From contig JAIUOR010000020.1 of assembly GCA_020161795.1 (NCBI GenBank), positions 1 through 64,000 on the forward strand: a stretch of DNA of 64,000 nucleotides. Direction: 5' to 3'. Below, piece by piece: positions 9,671-63,717 of this stretch. A program made the position numbers and the translations under genes. Below the pieces are notes generated by a model. The model was not told the origin of the DNA. It saw only the letters and a list, made by a program, of their open reading frames with translations, and made no database searches. This DNA is from Actinomycetota bacterium (GTDB taxonomy: Bacteria > Actinomycetota > Actinomycetes > Propionibacteriales > Propionibacteriaceae). The stretch's first letter is position 1, and each line of letters begins with the position of its first letter.

Positions 9671-9791
9671 TTTGTGCTGGTGGATGGCGGCATGATGGGC
9701 GGGTGAACCTGCCCCCTGCAACGAATCCGGTCGTTCCGGAGTGTTCTGGGGTGTGGGAGCGAATCCGGCGGCCGAACCGATCGAACGGTCG

Positions 9792-10283
9792 ATGATGGCC
9801 GAGCTGGGCTTCGACGCGTTCGTGCGGGAGCGTTCGGCGGGGCTGTTGCGGTTCGCGCACCTGCTGAGCGGCAATCCCGACGACGCCGCCGAGCTCGTGC
9901 AGGAGGCGCTCACCAACCTCTACCCGCGCTGGGAGCGGGTGGCGGGCGCCGGCGATCCCGAGCCGTACGTGAAACGCAGCATCGTCAACTCCCGCAACAC
10001 CCGGTGGCGACGGCATCGCGAGACTCCGGCTGGTGACCCGTCCGAACTGGACGGAGTGGCAGCCGACCCCGCGAACGCCTGGGCAGACGCCGAGGTGTTC
10101 GGACGGCTGTTCGCCACCCTGCCCGCCCGGCAGCGGGCCGCGCTGATCCTGCGGTTCTACGAGGATCTGGACTTCGCCGCGATCGGCCGCCAGCTCGGCT
10201 GCGCCGAGCCCAGCGCCCGCTCACTGGTGCACCGTGCACTGGCCGATCTGCGCACCCGAATGCCCGGGAGGGACGATGACTGA
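9792..10283 (+). CDS. SigE-family ECF RNA polymerase sigma factor
   Basis: 163 residues from ATG 9792 (ATG 9795 follows; GTG 9741 would add 17 poor residues). Region 2 (about 8-75) has FDAFVRERSAGLLRFAHLL and the VQEALTNLYPRWERV stretch; region 4 (about 105-155) has LPARQRAALILRFYEDLDFAAIGRQLGC. This wording is typical of the actinobacterial SigE-like ECF family. The last 8 nt overlap the next gene, a membrane protein, so that product is the likely partner or anti-sigma. No zinc-binding anti-sigma (ZAS) motif is seen. Confidence 0.9.
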   Translation: MMAELGFDAFVRERSAGLLRFAHLLSGNPDDAAELVQEALTNLYPRWERVAGAGDPEPYVKRSIVNSRNTRWRRHRETPAGDPSELDGVAADPANAWADAEVFGRLFATLPARQRAALILRFYEDLDFAAIGRQLGCAEPSARSLVHRALADLRTRMPGRDDD

Positions 10284-12120
10284 ACGGCTGCCCGACGACC
10301 GTGCCGAGCAGGCGGCACGCACCTGGTTCGCCCAGCAGGCGTCCGCCGCGCCGGGCCAGATCGACCCCGTCGCCATCCGGGCCGCCGCCAGCCGGCGGCA
10401 GCGACTCCGGTTCACCGGCGTGCTGGCCGTTGCCGCCGTCCTGCTGGCCGTGCTGGTGATCGTCCCGCTGGCCCTGCGCCCGGCGAATCCTCCGGTCACC
10501 GGCATCCCCGCCCCGTCGGTGTCCGAGCCCACCTGGACGGCCACCTCGTCGCCCCCGCTCAGCCCCCGCTTCGGCAGCCTCACCGCGTGGCTGGACGGCC
10601 GGTTCTACATCCTCGGCGGCTGGGGCGGTGGCGACGGAGGCCCCTGCCCACCCGGCAGCACGTGCGACATGAAGATCCCGAACCTGCGCGACGGTGCCGC
10701 CTACGATCCCACGACGGACAGCTGGACCACGATCGCCGAGGCCCCGATCACGATCGGGCAGGAGTTCAGTGCCGTAGTGGTCCTGCAGGGTGTCCTCTAC
10801 CTGGCGGACCGGTTCGATGACGGCTCGTTCTGGGCCTATCACCCGGATGCCGACGAGTGGCAGGCACTCGCCCGACCACCGGGTTTCCGGCAGATGGTGG
10901 CCACCTCCGCCATGATCGTCGTCAACACCTATGACGACAACATCGTCCATCAGGCCTATCGTCCGTCGGAGGATGCCTGGGCACGGCTGCCGGATGGACC
11001 GATCGACTCCTGCTACGGGTTGAGTGCCTGGGCGGTGGGCGAGCGGGTGCTGGTACTAGGTCGCTGTGGTGCGGATGACACCGAGCTGCGCACCAGCTTC
11101 TACGACCCGGGCACGGACCAGTGGAGCCAGGCCAGGGCGATTCCCGACGTCGTCGCCGAGCCGACTGCCGGATACGACGACGAGGAGGCGGTCTACGTGG
11201 CGGGCGCGCTGATCTGGCCGGATTCGCTCGCTGCGGATTCGCCCATGCCGAAGCCCGGCATCTTCGACATCGCGACCGGTACCTGGCGCGACGTGAGTGC
11301 CGCCGATTCATCGGGTGGCCTCTCCTTCCGCGGGATGCCGGCCCCCGTCACCCCCGCCGTGCTGGAAGGGCTGGGCCTGGTGGAGGCCAACGGCAACCTG
11401 CTGGACGTCCGGACTTCGACCTGGGTTACGGTTCCGGAGGCGCCGGAGCCGGATCGCTGGGACCCGGTGGTGGCGTCCGGCCCGGACTCGCTGCTGAGCT
11501 GCTTCGGCTACCTCTACAGCGACGATTCCTTCGACGGCGGACGCTTCGCTCCGGGCTGCCAGCTGCTCACCCTCGGTTCGATCGACCCGCCAAGTCCGAC
11601 CGGGACGCCCACGCCGACGAGCCCGACCGGGACTCCCACACCGCTGAGCCCGACCGGCTCAGCCACACCCGTGAGCCCCACCGAGGTGCCTGGAAAGGTC
11701 TTCCGCGGGACGCTGCAGGAGTACAACGATGCGCGCATGGCCTGCGTGGCGGGGTACGGACTGACCGTTGTCCCCGGGGATCCGAACGACCTACCGAGCT
11801 TCGGCGTGTCGGCTGAGGGGGTCGGCCAGGATCGCGTGGACGAAGTGCTCGCGCTCTGCGACGAGGAAGTGGGCGTGCTGTACACGCCACCCGCGACCGA
11901 AGCGAGCATGACCGACGAGTACGAGTGGCTGGTCGGGCAGTACGAGTGCTTGGTCGCGGCAGGGTTCCCCGCAGCGGAACCGCCTCCCCTCGAGGTGGTG
12001 CTGGATCGCTGGCGCACCGGGGGCCACTCCACCTATGACCCCATGGCCACGCTCCTGGACCAGTACGACGCCGCGCTGGCCGCCTGCCCGCGCACGACGG
12101 CGGAATGGCCACGTCAGTGA
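10276..12120 (+). CDS. Membrane-anchored Kelch-like protein coupled to the sigma factor
   Basis: 614 residues from ATG 10276, preceded by GGGAGG; the annotated overlap with the sigma gene is 8 nt. Cytoplasmic N-terminus (1-45), one membrane segment (about 46-66, VLAVAAVLLAVLVIVPLAL), then an outside part with Kelch-like beta-propeller blades (GRFYILGGWGGG, YDPTTDSWTTIAEAP, YHPDADEWQALARPP). A Thr/Pro/Ser repeat linker with TSPTGTPTP-like units (about 435-475) leads to a C-terminal cysteine-containing domain. The topology suits a transmembrane sensor or anti-sigma, but no known anti-sigma domain is recognised; function inferred from coupling only. Confidence 0.75.
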   Translation: MTERLPDDRAEQAARTWFAQQASAAPGQIDPVAIRAAASRRQRLRFTGVLAVAAVLLAVLVIVPLALRPANPPVTGIPAPSVSEPTWTATSSPPLSPRFGSLTAWLDGRFYILGGWGGGDGGPCPPGSTCDMKIPNLRDGAAYDPTTDSWTTIAEAPITIGQEFSAVVVLQGVLYLADRFDDGSFWAYHPDADEWQALARPPGFRQMVATSAMIVVNTYDDNIVHQAYRPSEDAWARLPDGPIDSCYGLSAWAVGERVLVLGRCGADDTELRTSFYDPGTDQWSQARAIPDVVAEPTAGYDDEEAVYVAGALIWPDSLAADSPMPKPGIFDIATGTWRDVSAADSSGGLSFRGMPAPVTPAVLEGLGLVEANGNLLDVRTSTWVTVPEAPEPDRWDPVVASGPDSLLSCFGYLYSDDSFDGGRFAPGCQLLTLGSIDPPSPTGTPTPTSPTGTPTPLSPTGSATPVSPTEVPGKVFRGTLQEYNDARMACVAGYGLTVVPGDPNDLPSFGVSAEGVGQDRVDEVLALCDEEVGVLYTPPATEASMTDEYEWLVGQYECLVAAGFPAAEPPPLEVVLDRWRTGGHSTYDPMATLLDQYDAALAACPRTTAEWPRQ

Positions 12121-13310
12121 AGACGACCCACCCTGATCCCGCTGGACGACGATGGCCGCGGTTCGCCGTGCTGGTGGCCGCCGCGGCCGTGCTGGCCGCG
12201 CTGGTGATCTTCCCGCTGGCGTCACGTCCGGCGGAACCTCCGCTCTCCGGAATCCCCGCGCCCTCGGGGACGGAATCACCGAGCCCCACCGGGTCACCGG
12301 CGGATCCGACCGGGGCGCCCACCTCCGGTGCCGGGGGCCTGGTCTGGCGTGAGGCCGCGCCGCCCGACCCCGAACCGCGGCTCGAGCCGCTGATGGTCGC
12401 GGCAGGCGATGGCTACTACCTGATCGGCGGCTACCGTCACGGCCCGGACGGGGACGACGTCCACCTCGAGGACGGCTACCGATTCGACCCGGCCGGCGAC
12501 AGCTGGACGTCGATCGCCGATCTGCCACAGGTCGCCCTCTCCCACCCGTACCGGATGACGGCGGACGTGGTGGGGGAGACCGTCTTCGTCCACTTCGTCT
12601 TCGAGGAGCGGGGCGAGCTCTGGGCCTACGACACCGCGGCGGACAGCTGGCGGAAGATCGAGGACACCGGCGAGAGCGAGTATTTCGCCAGCACCGAGGA
12701 CGGGCTGGTCAAGGTTCTCTCCGACGAGGGCAGTTCCCGACTGCTCCTGCTGACCGATGGCGATCACCAGTGGGAGGATCTGCCCGAACTTCCGATGGGG
12801 CGCCGGCTCTTCCGACTCGGCGATCACCAACTCGGCTACCTGACCTTGGACCGGGTCGCGGTGCTCGACACCACCACCCGCAGCTGGCAGACCCCGTCCG
12901 AGCCCGGGGACGTCCTGAACCACGACGCCTACGGGGTGGATGGCGCCGCGGTCTTCGTCTACCCGCCGGACAGCGAGGGCGAACTCATGCCCAACCACAA
13001 GTACGGCCTCGACGTCGTCACGCTGGTGGACGGAACCTGGCGGCACATCGAGCCCATGCTCACCGACGGCGGGCTGGGCTCCCAGATCGGGCCGGTCACC
13101 GGGGGCTGGATCGTGATTTCCGGCAACTTGTTCGATCCTCACACCCAGGAGTGGTTGTCGGTTCCCGCGATCCCCGGTAGCGACTACCGGTGGGCTGTGC
13201 CCACGGCGGCCGGCGGCTCGCAGGGAGTGCTCACCTGCTTCCCGATCCGCGACATCGACGAGGACGAGCCACAACACTCCGGCGAGTGCTACTTCCTCGC
13301 CGTGCCGTGA
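12105..13310 (+). CDS. Second membrane-anchored Kelch-like protein
   Basis: 401 residues; ATG 12105 overlaps the previous gene by 16 nt, and GTG 12117 (overlap GTGA) is an equally possible start. Very short cytoplasmic N-terminus, membrane segment at about 19-38 (FAVLVAAAAVLAALVIFPLA), a Pro/Ser/Thr spacer, then propeller-like repeats (YYLIGGYRHG, YRFDPAGDSWTSIADLP, AYDTAADSWRKIEDTG). Clearly a paralogue of the upstream protein: both share the ...PLASRPAEPP/PLALRPANPP juxtamembrane segment. Lacks the longer cytoplasmic part, so it may be an accessory ectodomain rather than the sigma regulator. Confidence 0.75.
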   Translation: MATSVKTTHPDPAGRRWPRFAVLVAAAAVLAALVIFPLASRPAEPPLSGIPAPSGTESPSPTGSPADPTGAPTSGAGGLVWREAAPPDPEPRLEPLMVAAGDGYYLIGGYRHGPDGDDVHLEDGYRFDPAGDSWTSIADLPQVALSHPYRMTADVVGETVFVHFVFEERGELWAYDTAADSWRKIEDTGESEYFASTEDGLVKVLSDEGSSRLLLLTDGDHQWEDLPELPMGRRLFRLGDHQLGYLTLDRVAVLDTTTRSWQTPSEPGDVLNHDAYGVDGAAVFVYPPDSEGELMPNHKYGLDVVTLVDGTWRHIEPMLTDGGLGSQIGPVTGGWIVISGNLFDPHTQEWLSVPAIPGSDYRWAVPTAAGGSQGVLTCFPIRDIDEDEPQHSGECYFLAVP

Positions 13311-36762: not shown

Positions 36763-38039
36763 CCACGATCGGCTTCGGGATTCTCTTCTTCGCGCTCATC
36801 ATGGTCTCGGTGGCCCTGCACGAAGTGGGTCACATGCTGCCGGCCAAGCGGTTCGGCGTCCGGGTGCCGCAGTACATGGTGGGCTTCGGCCCGACCCTGT
36901 GGTCGACCACCCGCGGCGAGACCGAGTACGGCATCAAGGGCTTTCCGCTGGGTGGCTACGTCCGGCTCCTCGGCATGTACCCGCCCGGCTCCAGGCGGGA
37001 GGGGAAGGCCAGCCGGGTCGCGGAGCTGGCCGATGCGGCACGGGCCCAGGAATGGTCGCAGATCACCCCGCAGGACGTCGCCGACAACCGGCTCTTCTAC
37101 CAGAAGAAGACCTGGCAGAAGCTGGTGGTGATGTTCGGCGGGCCGTTCATGAACATCCTGATCGCCTTCGCCCTGTTCTGGGGGATCACCGCCCTGTACG
37201 GGGTGAACCGCGCCCAGACCACGATCTACCACGTCTCACAGTGCATCGTCGCCGACAGCACCCAGCGCGACTGCGAGCCCGGCGATCCGCCCACCCCGGC
37301 CGCCGAGGCCGGCCTGCGCGCCGGCGACACGGTGATCGAGTTCAACGGCACGGCGATCACCAGCTACGAACAACTCAGCGGGCTGATCCGCGCCAACCTC
37401 GACAACGAGGCGCGGATCGTCGTCGAGCGCGACGGCGACCGGGTCGAGCTCACCCCGGTCAATACGGTGATCACCCAGGTACGCGACAGCTGGGATCCCT
37501 CGCGGATCGTGTCGGCCGGCTTCCTCGGGGTGTCGCCGGAGTACGTCCTCACCAAGGGCGGCCCGGTCGAGGCACTCTCCGACATGGCGACGATGGCCGG
37601 GCAGAGCCTGGTGGCGCTGGCGCAACTGCCTGTGAAGGTGTGGAACCTGGTGGTCGACATGGTCACCGGACAGCCGCGCGACATCTACGGACCGATCAGC
37701 ATCCTGGGCGCCAGCCAGGTGGCCGGCCAGGTGATCGCGCAGGAGGATCTCAGCTGGCAGGCCCGCGCCGTCACCTTCGCCTCGCTGCTGGGTTCGATCA
37801 ACCTCTTCCTGGCGATCTTCAACCTGGTGCCGCTGCCGCCGCTGGACGGCGGCCACATGCTGGGCGCGGTCTGGGAATGGCTGCGCCGCCAGGGGGCGAG
37901 GCTGCTCCGCCGGCCCGACCCCGGCCCGGTGGACACCGCCAAGCTGCTGCCGGTCGCCTACGCCGTCGGCGGATTGCTGCTGCTGAGCGGAATCGTGCTG
38001 ATTCTGGCCGATATCATCAACCCCCTCCAGCTGTTCTGA
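36750..38039 (+). CDS. rseP: RseP/Rip1-type site-2 protease
   Basis: 429 residues from ATG 36750 (GGAGGAA before it). Intramembrane zinc metalloprotease: HEVGH (H24, E25, H28) in the first membrane helix, a PDZ domain (about 170-260, GLRAGDTVIEFNGTAI), and the third ligand in LPPLDGGH (near 364). Typical members finish the degradation of anti-sigma factors, so it could act on membrane anti-sigma proteins such as the partners of the ECF factors in this window; that link is inference. Coupled to dxr by a 13-nt overlap. Confidence 0.94.
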   Translation: MELLTTIGFGILFFALIMVSVALHEVGHMLPAKRFGVRVPQYMVGFGPTLWSTTRGETEYGIKGFPLGGYVRLLGMYPPGSRREGKASRVAELADAARAQEWSQITPQDVADNRLFYQKKTWQKLVVMFGGPFMNILIAFALFWGITALYGVNRAQTTIYHVSQCIVADSTQRDCEPGDPPTPAAEAGLRAGDTVIEFNGTAITSYEQLSGLIRANLDNEARIVVERDGDRVELTPVNTVITQVRDSWDPSRIVSAGFLGVSPEYVLTKGGPVEALSDMATMAGQSLVALAQLPVKVWNLVVDMVTGQPRDIYGPISILGASQVAGQVIAQEDLSWQARAVTFASLLGSINLFLAIFNLVPLPPLDGGHMLGAVWEWLRRQGARLLRRPDPGPVDTAKLLPVAYAVGGLLLLSGIVLILADIINPLQLF

Positions 38040-63186: not shown

Positions 63187-63717
63187 GTGAGTGTCGACAA
63201 CCGGATCGGAGTCGCGGTGGGGGTTGAGCCTTCGTTCGACGACTACGTCCGGGCGCGCTCGGACGGTCTGCTGCGGCTGGCCTGGCTGATCACCCGGAAC
63301 TGGGAGGATGCCCGGGACGCCGTTCAGGACGGCTTCGCGGCGCTCTATCCGCGCTGGCATCGGCTGCCGGAAGGCGACCGCCGGCACGCCTACGTGTCCC
63401 GGACGGTCGTCAACGCCTGCCTCGCGGTGATCCGGCGGCGCCGCGCCCAGCCGGTGGCCGATCCGTCCGTTCTGGCGGAGGCGCCGGTCTCGGCGGACGC
63501 GAGCACGGCGATCGCCGCCGCCGACGAGGCATGGCGGCTGTGCGCCGAACTTCCGCCGGCCCAGCGCGCGGCGGTGGTGCTGCGCTTCTACCGCGACTAC
63601 AGCTTCGGCCAGATCGCCGAGGCGCTCGGATGCCCGGAATCGACCGCGCGCTCCCACGTCCACCGGGCGATGGCGACGCTGCGTTCCCGGCTCGGAAAGG
63701 GTGACGACGATGAATGA
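63187..63717 (+). CDS. SigE-family ECF RNA polymerase sigma factor (second copy)
   Basis: 176 residues from GTG 63187. Region 2: FDDYVRARSDGLLRLAWLI ... VQDGFAALYPRWHRL; region 4: LPPAQRAAVVLRFYRDYSFGQIAEALGC and ARSHVHRAMATLRSRLG. Same subfamily as the factor at 9792. Its last 8 nt overlap the next membrane-protein gene, exactly as in that cassette. GACTCT ends 8 nt before the GTG, so it may be leaderless. Confidence 0.9.
   Translation: MSVDNRIGVAVGVEPSFDDYVRARSDGLLRLAWLITRNWEDARDAVQDGFAALYPRWHRLPEGDRRHAYVSRTVVNACLAVIRRRRAQPVADPSVLAEAPVSADASTAIAAADEAWRLCAELPPAQRAAVVLRFYRDYSFGQIAEALGCPESTARSHVHRAMATLRSRLGKGDDDE

Follow-up and report, generated by a model that had tools for sequence, protein, structure and literature searches.

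A putative ECF sigma factor/anti-sigma operon in which two membrane-anchored Kelch propellers may form the sensor

Among the membrane proteins whose genes immediately follow those of ECF sigma factors, the ones known from characterised systems are mainly inhibitors. In the SigI/RsgI systems, the carbohydrate sensors of clostridia, the partner joins a short anti-sigma part in the cytoplasm, through a single membrane helix, to interchangeable ectodomains; we know of no RsgI protein with a Kelch ectodomain. The regulon side of clostridial SigI/RsgI has been described (PMC10766802). RsiV is an anti-sigma factor that acts as a lysozyme receptor, its ectodomain binding the ligand directly and triggering proteolytic release (PMC5014341). 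Among the class II proteins, helix 1 of CnrY binds sigma4 (PMC7406223), and CnrY works with a second protein, CnrX (PMC4598750). A recognised class I anti-sigma domain is encoded next to only about a third of ECF sigma factors (PMC7406223). No Kelch propeller serving as an anti-sigma ectodomain is described in the papers searched, a set without the central ECF classification and the actinobacterial survey.

Here we describe three genes from a window of 64,000 nucleotides (the whole stretch of DNA analysed); all features lie on its forward strand. They encode an ECF sigma factor (9792–10283, ATG at 9792 or 9795, TGA at 10281–10283), the membrane protein K1 (10276–12120, ATG at 10276, stop at 12118–12120) and a second Kelch protein, K2 (12105–13310, ATG at 12105). 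Our main reading, to which we give a probability of about 0.68, is that they form a one-operon transmembrane signalling unit, in which K1 would be an anti-sigma factor that combines a minimal helical domain with a propeller sensor. The sigma and K1 genes overlap by 8 nt and the K1 and K2 genes by 16 nt, the start and stop positions agreeing with the initial annotation on both counts.

The sigma factor is a two-domain ECF protein of the sigma70 type, with sigma2 and sigma4 only: its Pfam matches are above cut-off (PF08281, 48.1 against 25.7; PF04542, 30.6 against 24; also PF04545), as is NCBIfam TIGR02937 (54.9 against 42.9 bits). Of the full-length NCBIfam matches, TIGR02983 (SigE-fam_strep) is the strongest by a wide margin; its score of 129.9 bits is below the curated cut-off of 141.55. 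The AF2 model of the sigma factor (mean pLDDT 88) places the sigma4 helices at residues 99–107, 111–122, 127–134 and 138–155; region 4 opens with the first of these, and the loop after the second contains Asp124. Upstream, at 9717–9744, a motif match identifies a candidate ECF-type promoter, TGCAAC-N16-GAGTGT. The pattern TGCAACN{15,17}GMGTGT has one exact match in the whole genome of this organism, at this position before the sigma gene (control, 0), and CAAC-N(15 to 18 nt)-G[ACT]GT/CGTC precedes 122 of the 268 related sigma genes compared, against 5 antisense and 7 shuffled matches. The uniqueness of the motif, its position directly before the sigma gene and its conservation upstream of relatives indicate autoregulation, in which the sigma factor would transcribe its own operon from 9717–9744.

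Sigma loci were gathered from the family, order and class (217 distinct sigmas), from GTDB contigs (80) and in a last set (80). A membrane protein, usually with a short cytoplasmic N-terminus, is encoded behind 171 of the 217 sigmas of the first set, and the same kind of partner is found behind 71 of 80 in the GTDB set, which includes the closest relative, a Propionicimonas MAG, and behind 71 of 80 in the last set. That relative makes it probable that the host belongs to the Propionibacteriaceae. Many of the sigmas that have no such partner belong to one family of actinomycetes with large genomes. The overlap between sigma and partner is 4 nt in 100 and 8 nt in 36 of the 171 loci of the first set, and 4 or 8 nt in 41 and 27 of the 71 GTDB loci. 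This recurrence shows that the sigma/K1 overlap is more than chance, and a chance overlap was therefore rejected; such translational overlap would keep the amounts of sigma and K1 in step. The genome of this organism has eight strong SigE-type sigmas, and at loci L003–L008 each sigma gene is followed by an overlapping gene for a single-pass protein with 40–60 cytoplasmic residues. The gene at L005 is a second SigE-type sigma gene of the window (63229–63717); its partner, from 63710 onward, overlaps it by 8 nt, runs beyond the window, and is a single-pass protein with the same kind of tail and a non-Kelch ectodomain. The ectodomains of 100 non-Kelch partners mostly have no Pfam match, others being DUF4232, Gmad2/Germane, META, serpin, LCP (LytR-CpsA-Psr) and PknH_C; serpin, LytR-CpsA-Psr and spore-germination (Gmad2/Germane) ectodomains sit, in some partners, behind the same kind of tail. 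The operon exemplifies a sensing design that is common in actinobacteria but little described, in which ectodomains can be exchanged.

Hydropathy, Pfam Kelch motifs and the AF2 propeller agree with the initial annotation of K1 as a single-pass protein with a cytoplasmic N-terminus and external Kelch blades. Its architecture comprises a cytoplasmic anti-sigma-like domain, a membrane helix (about residues 43–65, 10402–10470, from hydropathy and an AF2 helix at 31–61), an extracellular propeller and a C-terminal Cys domain. The propeller (residues ~80–442, 10513–11601) is of the Kelch or galactose-oxidase type: Kelch_6 and Kelch_1 match above their cut-offs in K1 (31.7 against 25.3 and 24.7 against 20.1), as do the Kelch profiles in K2 (31.3 and 32.3), and AF2, run on 7 sequences, builds a beta propeller at K1 residues 86–432 with pLDDT mostly 80–97. 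Foldseek matches this model to Kelch domains (E 1.8e-14), and VIA-align matches it to galactose oxidase (Z 19.4, rmsd 4.5 Å over 306 residues, 14% identity), a likeness of fold only. Motifs and predicted fold together make K1 a Kelch propeller protein. The initial annotation had staked its proposal in advance on two points, that the blades be borne out by structure prediction and that homologues share a conserved cytoplasmic motif; the first is borne out by the confident K1 model, and the second by the profile described below.

The conserved cytoplasmic domain of K1 occupies residues 1–42 (10276–10401) and is defined by a held-out profile, by coevolution and by AF2, which predicts a helix at 8–23 and a juxtamembrane helix, 31–61, entering the membrane (confidence here is low to moderate). 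These 42 residues contain neither Cys nor His, so that the zinc anti-sigma motif is absent, as the initial annotation had noted, and a zinc anti-sigma identity for K1 was rejected. In the consensus of the tails, E..LR..L...A is followed by a linker with Pro, one hydrophobic position and a run rich in Arg, and then by the membrane helix; the first hydrophobic position is Leu in most partners and Ala in K1. A profile was built from 144 tails, those of K1 and its ortholog being held out; it gives the K1 tail 17.2 bits, against a maximum of 12.0 in 2000 composition shuffles; without its basic end the tail scores 12.1 bits, a value reached by 3 of 2000 shuffles. Since it is kept across widely differing ectodomains, the tail is, on the sequence evidence, a module independent of the ectodomain. 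Compared with solved structures, including those of anti-sigma factors, and with Pfam, the tail profile gave only chance matches, none of them significant. The NCBIfam model NF052375, 'anti-sigma factor', matches the juxtamembrane and membrane segment with 16–22 bits (cut-off 100) and was set aside as evidence. Several distant ECF sigmas of the same genus (L012, L013, L014, L018 and L052) are followed by a single-pass protein without overlap and with a different tail; in L012–L014 and L052 this tail recurs as xALxxxxPD...W......R...L, and it is perhaps another small anti-sigma type.

Mean-field DCA was applied to sigma/partner pairs, first to 217 and then to 284, the larger set including the first. 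The strongest inter-protein coupling joins sigma 103 and tail column 24, in helix 1, and strengthened from 4.3 SD in the smaller set to 6.7 SD in the larger; the couplings of tail helix 1 cluster at sigma 96–108. In the 284 pairs the ten top couplings between sigma4 helix 1 and tail helix 1 average 0.93 against a null maximum of 0.61, the sigma 97–112 region having been picked after the first data set, so that the test on the larger set is not fully independent. The null consisted of 95 lineage-preserving shuffles, in which partners were swapped only within clusters of similar sigmas, and none of the 95 reached the observed helix–helix signal. The transmembrane control (0.66) lies near its null (maxima 0.71 and 0.65), slightly above it at finer clustering. 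Tail column 18 is Arg in 150 of 231 pairs whose sigma has Asp124 and in 9 of 53 whose sigma does not, and the pair is retained in the window's operon as D124 of sigma and R15 of K1. Genes so closely linked covary in part through shared phylogeny; as the covariation of tail helix 1 with sigma4 helix 1 goes beyond all 95 shuffles, the K1 tail probably binds sigma. The initial annotation had proposed the short cytoplasmic part as a new type of anti-sigma domain. This is borne out in part: the cytoplasmic part is conserved and covaries with sigma4, but the tail is general to the sigma clade rather than specific to Kelch proteins, and of the two Kelch proteins of the operon it belongs to K1 only.

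The alternative that survives best, although we consider it unlikely, is that the Kelch proteins are enzyme- or adhesin-like envelope effectors under sigma control, the tail serving only topology and translational coupling and sigma being controlled otherwise. The K1 fold is close to that of galactose oxidase, the positive-inside rule would account for the basic residues ahead of the membrane helix, and Kelch relatives occur as free lipoproteins without a sigma: among 28 non-redundant Kelch ORFs, one of which is K2, automatic detection places 19 behind a sigma, and a sigma likewise precedes L004 and L054 (the latter at the locus of L007); of those with no adjacent sigma, three (L032, L036 and L053) have an N-terminus that resembles a lipoprotein signal. 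However, these three have no tail, helix 1 lies well upstream of the basic stretch and is conserved across unrelated ectodomains, and it covaries with sigma4 far more than the transmembrane segment does. It is less probable still that the tail, once bound to sigma, acts not as an inhibitor but as a positive co-factor or a membrane tether. Covariation supports a sigma–tail contact and does not give the sign of the effect, and RskA is reportedly a dual activator and inhibitor; against this, autoregulated sigmas need a brake, and the characterised membrane partners in this position mainly inhibit.

In the anti-sigma reading that we prefer, helix 1 of the K1 tail would dock on the helix that opens sigma region 4 and on a loop beyond it, sigma2 may be contacted by the basic juxtamembrane residues, and K1 would thereby hold sigma at the membrane, away from RNA polymerase, a binding suggested by conservation and coevolution. 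The K1 and K2 propellers would together be the sensor. Binding or loss of a ligand, which we guess to be a glycan or an envelope component, would change or cleave K1, free sigma and amplify the operon. Release might proceed by regulated proteolysis involving an M50 site-2 protease; the genome's single M50 match lies inside the window (36786–37892), a weak pointer to proteolytic release given that M50 proteases are found in 14 of 14 control genomes.

Both Kelch proteins are anchored in the membrane, as the initial annotation had it, but K2 has only about 17 cytoplasmic residues and no conserved N-terminal domain (ORF, Pfam and tail-profile score, the last being 2.7 bits), and K2 as a second anti-sigma factor was rejected on that score. 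Its transmembrane and juxtamembrane segment (12159–12267) is a partial copy of K1 positions 10408–10519, detected by local DNA alignment (113 alignment columns, score 102 against a shuffled maximum of 38). A sister genome has a single 765-aa ORF made of tail, membrane helix, propeller 1 and propeller 2, and K2 is 69% identical to the second half of this protein. The C-terminal 4-Cys domain of K1 (11683–12117), single copy in the genome, is absent from the sister-species protein and 54% identical to a free-standing lipoprotein that carries a lipobox (L027); it looks like a captured lipoprotein domain. The split between K1 and K2 likely resulted from an insertion and a partial duplication, which would have left the two propellers of one sensor separately anchored, a direction of change that we infer from these comparisons. 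As K2 has no tail domain and is fused to K1 in the sister species, it is probably part of the K1 sensor. That K2, a separate and separately anchored protein in this genome, is instead an independent second regulator (co-anti-sigma or decoy) is improbable, given that it has no cytoplasmic domain, that the sister species joins it to the K1 propeller in one chain and that its membrane segment was copied from K1. On contig C45 of the same genome (L007/L051/L054) a paralogous sigma gene is followed by one for a 786-aa protein with two Kelch blocks, an unsplit double propeller.

Like the class I proteins (RseA, RsiW, RskA and the zinc type), K1 is membrane-anchored, encoded directly behind an ECF gene and provided with an ectodomain that would serve as sensor; it differs in its tail, which has ~42 residues instead of ~100, no four-helix bundle and none of the HxxxCxxC motifs often found in that class. 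The covarying sigma positions also differ, lying in sigma4 helix 1 and in the loop that contains residue 124, whereas class I contacts involve helices 4.2 and 4.4 (PMC7406223). The three helices of the class III protein RsbN are not found in the K1 tail, which in AF2 has one full helix and a juxtamembrane helix of low to moderate confidence. The likeness is greater to class II, CnrY and NepR, which have a very short cytoplasmic helical domain without zinc, CnrY being membrane-anchored too. Class II domains embrace sigma2 and sigma4 with two short helices; the size and helices of the K1 tail fit this pattern, as does the covariation of helix 1 with sigma4, which suggests the same docking as in CnrY, while a sigma2 contact is weak. 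No sequence similarity to CnrY or NepR is detectable; K1 is actinobacterial, and it carries its putative sensor in the same protein instead of dividing the task as CnrY and CnrX do. The best reading is that the tail is a minimal helical anti-sigma domain resembling class II, either a type of its own or a class II-like domain that has diverged. More tentatively, and with somewhat less than even chances, several hundred SigE-type partners in actinobacteria might have tails of one uncatalogued anti-sigma class of ~40 residues, distinct from I–III, with helix 1 on sigma4 helix 1 and with interchangeable ectodomains attached (Kelch, Gmad2/Germane, META, DUF4232, serpin, LCP), with this operon as its double-propeller form split into two anchored proteins. 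A small conserved tail with such a sigma contact (D124–R15, sigma4 helix 1) would give many members of this abundant actinobacterial sigma clade a regulator, and would make the sensors of the clade identifiable.

In layout, K1 resembles RsgI, with the same succession of short tail, single membrane helix and interchangeable ectodomain. It lies outside that family: SigI is not part of this ECF clade, the sigma factor of the operon being ECF, and Pfam RsgI_N matches neither K1 nor the other tails. With RsiV it would share the role of receptor-type anti-sigma factor, from which it differs both in its ectodomain and in its anti-sigma domain. By analogy with these two systems, we propose that K1 works as RsgI and RsiV do, as a receptor anti-sigma factor, without belonging to either family.
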